A program made the translations under genes and the position numbers. Positions 26,383-39,229 of a stretch of 64,000 bases of DNA are shown here, in pieces. Source of the DNA: Streptomyces sp. MBT53. Lineage in GTDB: Bacteria > Actinomycetota > Actinomycetes > Streptomycetales > Streptomycetaceae. The number at the start of each line of letters is the position of its first letter. The stretch's first letter is position 1. The stretch covers positions 1-64,000 of the forward strand of contig NZ_JAEQAZ010000011.1 of the NCBI RefSeq assembly GCF_016654115.1, read 5' to 3'. A model generated the notes under the pieces. The model was not told where the DNA came from and did no database searches. It saw nothing but the letters and a program-made list of their open reading frames with translations.

Positions 26383-26580
26383 GCGGAACGCCGAATCCTG
26401 CCGCCGCCCGGCATCCCAGTCACGAACTTCTCGCACGGCAGGAGCGGGGGAACCAGGTAAGTCGCCGGACCGGTCAGCACGACCGGGACGGCTTGGGGTT
26501 AAGTCACGTCCGTGAGGGCGTGGCCGGGCACCTCCCAGCCCGAACCCGACAGCTCACCTCGCAGGCGACGGAGAGGAACC
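26383..26580 (+). ncRNA. cyclic di-AMP (ydaO/yuaA-type) riboswitch
   Basis: The leader matches the ydaO-type aptamer seen upstream of cell-wall lytic genes in Streptomyces. It begins GCGGAACGCCGAATCC. A stem TCCTGCC/GGCAGGA pairs 26396-26402 with 26437-26443 and is followed at once by the conserved GCGGGGGAACC. Then come GGGGTTAAGT (26494-26503), GCCCGAACCCGACAGCT (about 26538-26554) and the closing segment with GCAGGCGACGGAGAGGAACC. It ends 5 nt before the transglycosylase ATG, so the GAGAGG ribosome site is part of, or touches, the 3' side. In this family c-di-AMP binding generally turns expression off. The 5' boundary is approximate. Confidence 0.86.
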
Positions 26581-26585
26581 TCGTC

Positions 26586-36267: not shown

Positions 36268-36359
36268 GCGGGGAGACTATGGCGTCCGGCGCCCGACCGC
36301 ATCCGACGGCGGACCTACGTCGCAAGGCGGACTCGTGCGCGGGGGCCGTGCCCTGCCTG

Positions 36360-36875
36360 TCAGGCGTCGTCGGAACTCCGCACGAGGGATCCGCCGATCC
36401 CGAAGGACAACGCCTTTTGGTCTCTGCTCAGTGAGCGCCGCATGGCATTGACCAACTGCACCTGCGCCCGGGCGGGCGCCCTGCTCGCCCGGGCGAACTC
36501 CTCCTGGCTCAACGGATCACGCGTAGCGTCGCGTGCCGGGTCGCGCGCCACCGTGTCCAGGAACCCGTTGACGGCCTTGCCGAAGTTGTCGATCTCGGTC
36601 GCGACGGCCGCAGGCGCGACCAGACTGGCGCGGGTCAGTGCCGCGCTCCACTCGCTCCAGTCGTAGTCCCATCCCTGCCGGCCGGCATGCGCGCGGCTGA
36701 TGGTCATCGTGAACTTGGCGTAGTGGCTGATCAGTTCCTGGTAGGCGAGCAACTGCTTGTCCCGCAGCCACTGACGGTCCTGGGCCCGGTGCGTGACGAT
36801 GCCCCCGACCAGGACCCCGACCGTGGCAGACAGCGCCCCGACGCCCGTTGTCAGCAGTGTGTCCAGCAGTGCCAC
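36360..36875 (-). CDS. membrane-anchored hypothetical protein
   Basis: A 171-residue protein with one N-terminal hydrophobic segment (LLTTGVGALSATVGVLVGGIV, about 7-27), then a soluble, helical part: QWLRDKQLLAYQELISHYAKFTMTISRAHAG and LVNAMRRSLSRDQKALSFG. The beginning resembles short Streptomyces membrane proteins that carry an 'HRAQDRQWLRDKQLxAY' segment after the helix. No function is known to me. The start is the GTG at 36875, with only GCGGGG upstream. It is divergent from the FGE-like gene across 450 bp of non-coding sequence. Confidence 0.75.
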   Translation of the reverse strand: MALLDTLLTTGVGALSATVGVLVGGIVTHRAQDRQWLRDKQLLAYQELISHYAKFTMTISRAHAGRQGWDYDWSEWSAALTRASLVAPAAVATEIDNFGKAVNGFLDTVARDPARDATRDPLSQEEFARASRAPARAQVQLVNAMRRSLSRDQKALSFGIGGSLVRSSDDA

Positions 36876-37325
36876 AACAGGCCCCGCATTCCCCGTCGTT
36901 CGACCATCGGCGGCCCGAACCTACAACCCTCGGCATGCATCATCCAGGCATGCTCACCCCCGAACAACGCGACCGCACCCCGCGCCCGAGGGAGCCGTCG
37001 TGGCGAACACTCTTCGGCACTCCAGCGGACCGTCGACCGCGTACGGCGAGAAGGTGACGTGTCGGGGGGTGTCCGCCCGCAGCGGTTGGCGCGTCAACAC
37101 CCCGAAAATCTTGCGAGACCGATTCCGCGCCGTTCCGAGGACGGACACCCCCCGACGCGGCACCGACCCACAACGAACCGGGGGCGAACCACCCGCACAC
37201 TGCCGACCACCGCAACCCACAAGCCACCCCACCGAACCAGAACCCCGCCGAGCCCTGAATGCGACAATCACCACCACGGCCCACCTACGGCCGATGCTCA
37301 CGGAGCTACGGAGCTGACGCAACGC
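36876..37325. other. 450-bp non-coding region with a long spaced inverted repeat
   Basis: No convincing gene. A perfect 15-bp inverted repeat, GTCGGGGGGTGTCCG (37061-37075) and CGGACACCCCCCGAC (37142-37156), encloses 66 nt with a less GC-rich core, ACCCCGAAAATCTTGCGAG. Read on the minus strand the same stretch has TTTTCGGGGTGTTGACGCGC, which I believe recurs between other Streptomyces genes. A 35-codon frame from 36951 is too short and unsupported. Promoters for the two flanking divergent genes must also be here. Confidence 0.6.
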
Positions 37326-38003
37326 ATGGGCACGACCACACACATCGACCTCATCCCCGTCCCGTCCGGCCAGGTCACCCTCTCCGACCGCCGCACGGAA
37401 CGCAGTTGGACGGTCGACCTCGCCGCCTTCGAGCTCGGCACCCTCCCCGTCACCCAGGCCCAGTACGCCCAGGTCACCGGCCAACACCCCAGCACCGCCC
37501 CCGGCAACGACCGCCTCCCCGTGGAGACCGTGTCCTGGCTGGACGCCGTACTCTTCTGCAACTCCCTATCACTACAAGACGAGTTGACACCCGCGTACGA
37601 CATCCAGGGCGAGACCGTCGTACCCGCCCCCTCCGCCGACGGCTACCGCCTCCCCACCGAGGCCGAGTGGGAGTACGCCTGCCGCGCCGGGACGACCGGC
37701 CCCCGCTACGGGCCGCTCGACGACATCGCCTGGCACCGCGGCAACTCCGAGGAACGGCCCCACGAACCGGGCGGCCGACTCCCCAACCCGTGGGGCCTGC
37801 ACGACATGCTGGGCAATGTGTGGGAGTGGTGCTGGGACCTCTACGACCCGGAGGTCTACGGCACCTATCGGGTACTGCGCGGCGGCGGATGGTTCGACGA
37901 GCACTGGAGCTGCCGTGCCTCGGTACGCCGTCGAAGCCACCCGACCTTCCGCGTCGACGACGTGGGCTTCCGCGTCGCCCGATCGTCGACCGCAAAAAAC
38001 TGA
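37326..38003 (+). CDS. FGE/SUMF1-fold domain protein
   Basis: A 225-residue protein of the formylglycine-generating-enzyme-like fold. Motifs: LPVTQAQYAQVTG (40-52), LPVETVSWLDAVLFCN (64-79), YRLPTEAEWEYACRAGT (107-123), NPWGLHDMLGNVWEWCWD (154-171), YRVLRGGGWFDEHWSCRASVRRRSHP (181-206) and DVGFRVAR. True FGE uses two nearby active-site cysteines in the last region. Here only Cys196 is present, so sulfatase activation is unlikely, and this is a generic SUMF1-type domain that might be an oxygenase or a binding domain. No sulfatase lies nearby. The ATG at 37326 gives a complete single-domain protein. The next two genes are on the opposite strand. Confidence 0.87.
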   Translation: MGTTTHIDLIPVPSGQVTLSDRRTERSWTVDLAAFELGTLPVTQAQYAQVTGQHPSTAPGNDRLPVETVSWLDAVLFCNSLSLQDELTPAYDIQGETVVPAPSADGYRLPTEAEWEYACRAGTTGPRYGPLDDIAWHRGNSEERPHEPGGRLPNPWGLHDMLGNVWEWCWDLYDPEVYGTYRVLRGGGWFDEHWSCRASVRRRSHPTFRVDDVGFRVARSSTAKN

Positions 38004-38014
38004 CGACCCGCCAA

Positions 38015-39229
38015 CTACCCGTGCGCCGCCGCCAGATGCTTCGCCAGCCGCGGCGACGCGAACTCCGTGCCGCACACGAACCGCATCACCGGCCCGTACG
38101 ACGACGCGGCCGGCAGCCCCGTGAAGTAGACACCCGGCACCGAGGACACATACCCCGCACCGAGCTTCGGCGTCCCCCTGCTCACCGCCAACTGCGTACG
38201 CAGCTCATGCCCCAGGAAGTCCATCGCCGCGATGTCGACCCGATAACCCGTCGCCGAGATGACGTGGTCGGCGCCGAGGCGCTCGGTACCACCGCCGTGC
38301 GTGCCGACCGTCAGAACCGGACGGCCTGCCTCCGCGTCCGCCCGTACGATCCGGTCGACCTCGCTGACCTGCACCTTCCCCTCGAACCGCTCGCGCAGCC
38401 ACCACGCGCCGAGCGGACCGAGCACCCGGCGGACCAGGTAGTGACGGGTCCCCTCGGGGAGATAGCGGTACGGCTGCGGGTAGTAGCTCAGCGCCCACAG
38501 CGACCACGCCCGCCCGAACGGCGACTCGGGACGCAGCTTCGGCTGCTCCCACGGCGCCGCGCCGAACGCGACCCGCCCCCGCCCGCGCGAGACGATCCGG
38601 ACCTGCGCGCCCGCCTCCGCCGCGAGTACCGCCGTCTCCAGCGCGGACTGCCCGGCGCCGACGACGATCAGCTCCTTGCCCTTGAACCCGCTGAGGTCGT
38701 GGTGCTGGGAGCTGTGCGAGACGGGACCGGTGGGTGCGGGGCCGTCGGCCGCCGCTGCGGCCAGCTCGGGCGGGAGGTGGGCCAGGCCGTACAGACCCGT
38801 CGCCACCACGACCGCGCGGGCCGTGAACAACTCCCCCGAATCCAGCTTGAGTTCGAAGCCGCCGCCCTTGTTCCGGTCGGCGTTCCGGTCCACCGACACG
38901 ACCCGTACCCGCTCCAGCTCGGGCACCAGCTTCTGCTGGAACCACTCGCCGTAGCCGATGAAGGTCTCGACGGGGATGATGTCCTCGTCGGTGACCAGGC
39001 GGGGGATGCCGGCCGCGTCGCAGTAGTCGACGAGGTTGTGGCCGGGCTGCGGGGCGTCGAAGTTGGAGGCGGCCGGGGTCGACTTCAGGAGCATTCCGGC
39101 CGGCATGTGGTCGCGCCAGCTGACCATGGGCTCGCCGAAGACACGGACCGGGATGCCGCGCGCCCGCAGATGCGCGGCGGTGGACAGGCCGAACGGGCCG
39201 GCGCCGATGATTGCTACCGGTTGAATCAC
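38015..39229 (-). CDS. FAD-dependent NAD(P)-binding monooxygenase-like protein
   Basis: A 404-residue two-dinucleotide-domain flavoprotein. The FAD motif is VAIIGAGPFGLSTAAHLRARG (about 5-25) and the NADPH motif is LIVVGAGQSALETAVLAAEAG. ATGLYGLAHLP and the ISATGYRVD region near the C-terminus are typical of flavin-containing and N-hydroxylating monooxygenases. The GTG at 39229 is preceded by GGGGAGGG, so it is preferred. A longer open frame would add an artefactual N-terminus read through the 15-bp repeats at 39300. It follows the ATP-grasp gene at 39346 by 116 bp in the same direction, and the two may act together on one product. Substrate unknown. Confidence 0.88.
   Translation of the reverse strand: MIQPVAIIGAGPFGLSTAAHLRARGIPVRVFGEPMVSWRDHMPAGMLLKSTPAASNFDAPQPGHNLVDYCDAAGIPRLVTDEDIIPVETFIGYGEWFQQKLVPELERVRVVSVDRNADRNKGGGFELKLDSGELFTARAVVVATGLYGLAHLPPELAAAAADGPAPTGPVSHSSQHHDLSGFKGKELIVVGAGQSALETAVLAAEAGAQVRIVSRGRGRVAFGAAPWEQPKLRPESPFGRAWSLWALSYYPQPYRYLPEGTRHYLVRRVLGPLGAWWLRERFEGKVQVSEVDRIVRADAEAGRPVLTVGTHGGGTERLGADHVISATGYRVDIAAMDFLGHELRTQLAVSRGTPKLGAGYVSSVPGVYFTGLPAASSYGPVMRFVCGTEFASPRLAKHLAAAHG

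Follow-up and report, generated by a model that had tools for sequence, protein, structure and literature searches.

An inverted repeat in a 64-kb stretch of Streptomyces DNA (the whole stretch analysed here, henceforth the 'window') is the stem of a dispersed hairpin element of ~145 nt, the copies of which evolve in concert within each genome. On balance, and with modest confidence, we read these copies as a new REP-like family of mRNA 3'-region hairpins, absent from Rfam and homogenised by gene conversion. The starting point was a sequence-only reading of the window, which had described a 15-bp perfect inverted repeat with a 66-nt spacer, and this description is exact: the 5' arm at 37061-37075 is GTCGGGGGGTGTCCG and 37142-37156 is its exact complement. 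When mismatches are allowed the arms reach 26 nt at 88% identity (37053-37078 and 37139-37164). A perfect 15-mer inverted repeat with a spacer of 3-100 nt occurs only this once across the window, and among 60 windows simulated with a second-order Markov model 2 had such a repeat (mean 0.033). The same reading had called the spacer less GC-rich and the stretch non-coding; the spacer, at 65% GC, is indeed poorer than the arms (80%) and the window as a whole (70%), and a GC3-based gene finder called no gene there, although mechanical open reading frames do cross it. The portion common to the copies is a hairpin of ~110 nt in which a long outer helix is joined, via an internal loop of conserved sequence, to an inner helix capped by a variable apical loop; the window copy lies between two divergent genes (Table 1).

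Table 1. Coordinates, within the window, of the parts of the hairpin element and of the genes on either side of it.
Feature	Position	Strand	Basis or remark
Minus-strand gene, left neighbour	36360-36875	-	Pfam match sub-threshold only (IncD, 20.4 bits vs cut-off 27)
Whole element	37027-37171	+	Match to covariance model R1 (145 positions) at 145.6 bits, E 5.2e-30, the copy itself being one row of the training alignment A1
Outer helix, 5' strand, with interruptions	37053-37078	+	Pairs with 37139-37164
5' arm of perfect 15-bp inverted repeat	37061-37075	+	Exact repeat search
Internal loop, 5' side (GCAG), conserved	37079-37082	+	Faces single A at 37138; A1 columns (nearly) invariant
Inner helix, 5' strand	37083-37091	+	Pairs with 37128-37137
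Apical loop	37092-37127	+	Similar among copies within a genome, variable from species to species
Inner helix, 3' strand	37128-37137	+	Pairs with 37083-37091
Outer helix, 3' strand	37139-37164	+	Pairs with 37053-37078
3' arm of perfect 15-bp inverted repeat	37142-37156	+	Exact repeat search
C-rich, G-poor tail	37170-37260	+	37164-37260: 47 C, 19 G, 3 T
FGE-sulfatase-domain gene, right neighbour	37326-38003	+	Pfam PF03781, E 7e-40

A structured RNA was one of the two possibilities that the sequence-only reading had offered for this stretch, and the covariation analysis it proposed agrees with that possibility, since the stem covaries both in the 44 copies of alignment A1, which is the basis of covariance model R1, and in 71 held-out sequences, none sharing more than 93% identity with a training row or with another of the set. 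RNAalifold returned the outer helix, the conserved internal loop and the inner helix. In the 44 sequences 96.3% of cells were paired and 11 of 35 pairs showed compensatory changes (26 cells), a result reached in 0 of 500 shuffles, whereas control pairings slid along the alignment gave 43-48% paired cells, 0-6 such pairs and 0-11 such cells. The held-out sequences were paired in 94.6% of cells, with double changes at 10 pairs (37 cells; 0 of 300 shuffles), compared with 43-48% of cells paired, and double changes at 4-9 pairs and in 7-14 cells, for the slid pairings. In some other species the element has a third conserved part, the C-rich tail, which is not recognisable as such in the window copy: it is conserved alongside the hairpin in G049 and more weakly in G143, G007, G157 and G175. 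A word taken from the tail was found at 10 sites in G009 and 11 in G049, of which 7 and 11, respectively, adjoin known elements, and at none in the window genome (G000), G026, G013 and G031. An intrinsic terminator was ruled out as an explanation of the hairpin: positions 36300-38100 contain no match to a short-loop hairpin followed by a U tract, and T makes up 3 of the 97 nt of the tail.

We next turn to the recurrence of the element, which the sequence-only reading had put forward. A blastn search with a 141-bp query matched 18 of 100 genomes, all 18 (the window genome included) belonging to the genus Streptomyces, so that related copies are indeed present in other Streptomyces genomes; the set comprised 61 genomes of the genus, counting that of the window, and 39 from other genera, in which there were no matches, and 3 of the 18 matches were short (29-52 bp; G005, G017 and G056). 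Using covariance model R1 at E <= 1e-5, matches were obtained in 63 of 199 genomes of the genus, about a third. At most 15 candidates were scored per genome, and both strands were counted; the 8 R1 matches in the window genome presumably represent the 4 full-length copies (93-100% identity) detected by blastn, each seen on both strands, and R1 counts are thus not copy numbers. Rich carriers have roughly 10-30 copies. The 13-base word CCGAGGACGGACA was found at 31 sites in G026, 17 in G049, 23 in G235, 15 in G157, 21 in G007, 17 in G143, 11 in G175 and 7 in the window genome, compared with 2 in each of three non-carriers and 0-1 for the reversed word as a control. Loci around these sites gave an R1 match in 103 of 114 cases from the seven carriers, and in 0 of 4 further loci from the window genome and 0 of 2 from non-carriers. 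Among the matches listed, named genome records scoring above 50 bits had titles naming Streptomyces, plus one Kitasatospora aureofaciens contig. The named carriers include S. coeruleorubidus ATCC 13740 and S. cyaneochromogenes MK-45.

No blastn match was obtained among 72,556 plasmid and 50,697 phage records, on which ground a plasmid or phage origin was rejected, and of 60 viral contigs containing a 15-mer word one (L227) had an R1 match. Membership of a known Rfam family was likewise rejected, as no family reached its gathering score with the element; the highest of the sub-threshold scores (24 bits against 137, E 0.077) was obtained with the model of a plant microRNA. Within the window as a whole a single sequence exceeds an Rfam gathering score, a c-di-AMP riboswitch (ydaO/yuaA leader, RF00379) at 26411-26582 on the plus strand (56.6 bits). 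Searches of titles and the beginnings of abstracts, in a collection that covers a minority of the subscription journals, returned no description of this hairpin family, and the arm words matched, in literature text, only work on C. elegans and cattle.

For the comparisons that follow we assembled 201 deduplicated elements, 130 from nine genomes and 71 from other loci. This set leaves out matches at, or cut by, the end of a contig or locus (L051, L061, L075, L083, the second match of L107, L125, L147, L151, L153, L154 and L156), weak matches (L115 and the second match of L093), weaker matches on the opposite strand, the short L016-L018, the A1 candidates L011 and L013, for which the anchor or length failed, and three duplicates (one of them L037). 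A second dispersed repeat (GGGGTGCCGCTGCGCCCACCCGTGCCGCC...) stands upstream of elements in G026, G235, G157, G009 and G175 (for example at L274, L288 and L317); the second repeat GCGCCCACCCGTGCCGCC was located within 300 bp upstream, in the same orientation, of 81 of the 201 elements, in inverted orientation at 1 and downstream at none. It also stands alone, with 50 sites in G026; allowing up to 1 mismatch, there are 24-50 sites in three carriers and 4 in the window genome. At L311, L304 and L320 (G157 and G175) the sequence upstream contains the element's 5' edge repeated in tandem as partial copies (GCCGCGTACGGCGAGAAGGGGCG...), and at L297 an extra 3' half of the element lies within ~100 bp downstream of the first copy.

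Sites were considered orthologous when both ~1.4-kb flanks matched, which placed 135 of the 201 elements in 43 groups; the 195 resulting pairs all have the same orientation and none the opposite one. At one such site, beside an S1 protease gene, the query matched in 121 of 121 genomes searched and 30 loci were fetched. Inspection by eye revealed the element at 6 of them (L229, L233, L234, L235, L241 and, in diverged form, L238), apparently truncated or deleted remnants in L231, L232, L255, L239 and perhaps L230, and several other loci without any trace of it; at this one locus the empty sites are too diverged, and a target-site duplication was not recognisable among the 30. The counterpart of the window copy in G107 (L381) adjoins the same FGE gene, also within a divergent pair, and the homology between the window and G107 extends from 37025 to 38120 at 83%. 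Its start coincides with the element's 5' edge (~37025), upstream of which the genomes differ; as the upstream gene is a different one in G107, the breakpoint of a rearrangement falls at the element or close by. Relatives of the 36360-36875 gene in G161 and G118 match no further than ~36903-36924, a homology that does not take in the element.

The best studied REP-like repeats are now considered to be moved by a transposase. We weighed the possibility, unlikely in our view, that the hairpin is a non-autonomous transposable element of the MITE/REPIN type that a trans-acting enzyme mobilises. The likeness of copies within a genome would then reflect recent bursts, and shared sites an insertion preference for some gene ends. 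Dispersed copies with inverted arms flanking a variable spacer fit such an element, as do its patchy presence (63 of 199 genomes) and the lack of copies at some orthologous sites, and the family shares with REPINs two inverted conserved arms, a less conserved spacer and many, mostly extragenic copies. The 195 same-orientation pairs against 0 opposite ones speak for inheritance instead, although insertion specific for site and orientation would also yield them, and the remnants seen at the S1 protease site, where target duplication was not recognised, point the same way. Of 15 carriers, 5 had a match to the Y1/RAYT transposase family (PF01797), as did 3 of 16 presumed non-carriers; the 10 carriers with no match (G000, G026, G235, G157, G007, G143, G175, G009, G014 and G228) include the window genome, and a RAYT-driven REPIN was accordingly rejected. 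So was a larger autonomous element with its arms around a gene, as 17 fetched pattern loci with no model hit had no convincing second arm within 1.8 kb, L362 having one weak, fuzzy match. The arms seem to lie inside the unit: conservation within genomes extends ~20 nt outward from the 5' arm, and on the 3' side it reaches as far as ~90 nt past the arm in several genomes. The sequence-only reading had named a small mobile repeat as its other possibility, which is borne out in part: the repeat is dispersed, but what we observe is mostly inheritance at fixed sites together with homogenisation, and no case of insertion accompanied by a target duplication was established.

Homogenisation is evident when copies at orthologous sites are compared with other copies. 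Across 86 ortholog pairs from 8 genomes (the pairs not being mutually independent), mean identity was 0.864 between orthologs, 0.859 between non-orthologs of the same two genomes and 0.918 within a genome, the within-genome mean being the higher one in 74 of the 86 pairs. Orthologs are thus barely closer than unrelated copies, whereas copies within a genome are closer, and the family therefore evolves in concert: position is inherited and sequence is common within the genome. The apical loop displayed the same pattern (0.773 ortholog, 0.759 non-ortholog and 0.903 within genome), and the order was reversed in the DNA 150-250 nt downstream (0.722 ortholog, 0.619 paralog and 0.620 other). G007 and G143 form an exception, their orthologs (0.881) being more alike than paralogs (0.872). 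In a FastTree tree, with changes counted on 87 copies, the genome label required 17 changes (minimum 7; 56-65 when shuffled) and the site label 73 (minimum 32; 73-79 when shuffled within genomes), a value as low as this occurring in 2 of 200 within-genome shuffles, so that a slight site signal is left.

Gene conversion would be the simplest cause of this homogenisation. Linkage among copies decays with distance in 3 of 6 genomes (permutations as extreme, out of 500: 5 in G026, 6 in G235 and 0 in G157), is borderline in G143 (43) and shows no decay in G007 (191) or G049 (157); four-gamete pairs amount to 35-78% across the six genomes. Because this decay points to recombination in 3 of 6 genomes, we think it quite unlikely that the copies are instead binding sites of one trans-acting protein or RNA, forming a post-transcriptional regulon homogenised by selection rather than conversion, in which the copies would change jointly because their partner changes. 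The (nearly) invariant internal loop within a covarying stem, and an apical loop uniform inside genomes and divergent between them, are what such a partner might impose, yet the neighbouring genes are unrelated: 15 of 16 looked up had a Pfam match above cut-off, with no theme in common. Very unlikely, in our estimate, is a bolder form of the idea, that the copies of a genome together form a single set of mRNA 3' modules that co-evolve and are recognised by one trans-acting RNA-binding factor, with sequences, apical loop included, that are rewritten genome-wide by recombination or RNA-templated homing, so that location would be ancestral and sequence set by the current genome.

The preferred reading, that the copies are mRNA 3'-region hairpins homogenised by gene conversion, also draws on strand and placement. 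Folded as RNA, the plus strand of the window copy has a free energy of -68.4 kcal/mol (z -3.6) and the minus strand is more stable still (-80.3 kcal/mol, z -4.5); each beats 200 of 200 shuffles, and the fold of a single copy is therefore not informative on strand. Wobble pairs are more telling. In the outer stem of the 201 elements there are 211 G.T and 36 A.C pairs, although 154 of the 211 wobbles fall at two stem positions and are inherited, hence non-independent, leaving 57 against 34 at the remaining positions; over all pairs of the held-out set the counts are 125 and 41. At the two wobble-rich positions T-A and C-G alternate via T.G and hardly ever via C.A (2 cells). As G.U wobbles exceed A.C mismatches, the plus strand is probably the functional single strand, acting as RNA.

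Gene classes were taken from a crude GC3-based gene finder, by which 155 of the 201 elements have both neighbours called, 36 lie inside a called open reading frame and 10 lack a neighbour. The 155 comprise 63 in convergent, 82 in co-directional and 10 in divergent settings, compared with 13, 107 and 51, respectively, for other gaps of at least 120 bp at the same loci (chi-square p 2e-14). Among the 82 co-directional copies, 56 are on the same strand as the genes and 26 on the opposite one (p 0.001, with non-independent sites); the nine genomes alone gave 40 and 21 (p 0.02). The element hence favours gene ends, that is, convergent gaps or positions downstream of a same-strand gene. The 26 opposite-strand copies are antisense to their neighbouring genes, and 2 of the 4 copies of the window genome are exceptions in a divergent setting; the window copy, being one of these, cannot serve as the 3' UTR of the gene to its left. 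That the element acts as DNA (as a cruciform, or as a nucleoid- or topoisomerase-binding site in the convergent gaps in which it is enriched and in which positive supercoils meet), the RNA fold being a by-product, has a precedent in the BIME-gyrase sites and would suit the better fold of the minus strand of the window copy, but it is highly improbable, because neither duplex nor symmetric cruciform DNA predicts 211 G.T against 36 A.C pairs and because of the 56 to 26 orientation bias in co-directional pairs.

REP-type hairpins block 3' exonucleases and/or provide a double-stranded halt or cut site for read-through between convergent genes. If the copies are a REP-like family of this kind, most of them would form the 3' UTR in the transcript of the gene upstream, and the hairpin would most likely set or protect the transcript 3' end, by blocking 3' exonucleases and/or by giving convergent read-through a double-stranded site at which to halt or be cut. 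Copies persist at their sites through speciation and would be kept alike within a genome via recombination between copies, that is, gene conversion, some of them vanishing by deletion. We infer transcription and an effect on mRNA by analogy, the suggested role in 3' stabilisation or read-through being drawn from REP and ERIC biology as given in parts of PMC2267715 and in titles cited in PMC4681348.

Several dispersed repeats invite comparison. The REP, BIME and REPIN repeats of enterobacteria and Pseudomonas are likewise dispersed and extragenic, and a section of PMC3116915 describes conserved inverted arms, a less conserved spacer and a hairpin predicted in single-stranded DNA or mRNA. We liken the Streptomyces family to them by description and not by sequence; it differs in that 10 of 15 carriers have no Y1/RAYT match and in that concerted evolution at orthologous sites has been measured. 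ERIC (127 bp; Enterobacteriaceae, Yersinia and Vibrio) is similar as an intergenic unit of ~100-150 nt with a single long predicted stem-loop, and its Yersinia copies are said, in a portion of PMC2267715, to control their neighbours via RNA hairpins; the taxa differ, and here too the likeness is one of description and not of consensus sequence. The same applies to the Correia repeat enclosed elements (CREE) of Neisseria, dispersed elements with inverted repeats that, according to an extract of PMC2649163, RNase III binds, cuts or protects and that can give rise to promoters and bind IHF, whereas no sigma-70-type promoter was matched at 36300-38100 of the window. With Rfam families at large the element shares structured RNA with covariation, none matching it at gathering score. 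In S. coelicolor, RNA-seq is reported in part of PMC4681348 to yield short, abundant transcripts on palindromes, many of them in 3' UTRs and probably decay intermediates, with which, by analogy, a Streptomyces hairpin family is consistent.

Overall, gene conversion as a mode of REP evolution was raised as a question in 1988, in the title of a review that both PMC4681348 and PMC2267715 cite, and the present family makes this old question of REP-like gene conversion directly testable, as it offers sites common to several Streptomyces species, copies homogenised within each genome and, among the carriers tested, a majority with no match to the REP transposase. It also comes with a covariance model for an RNA element that is absent from Rfam and is placed where mRNA 3' ends form.
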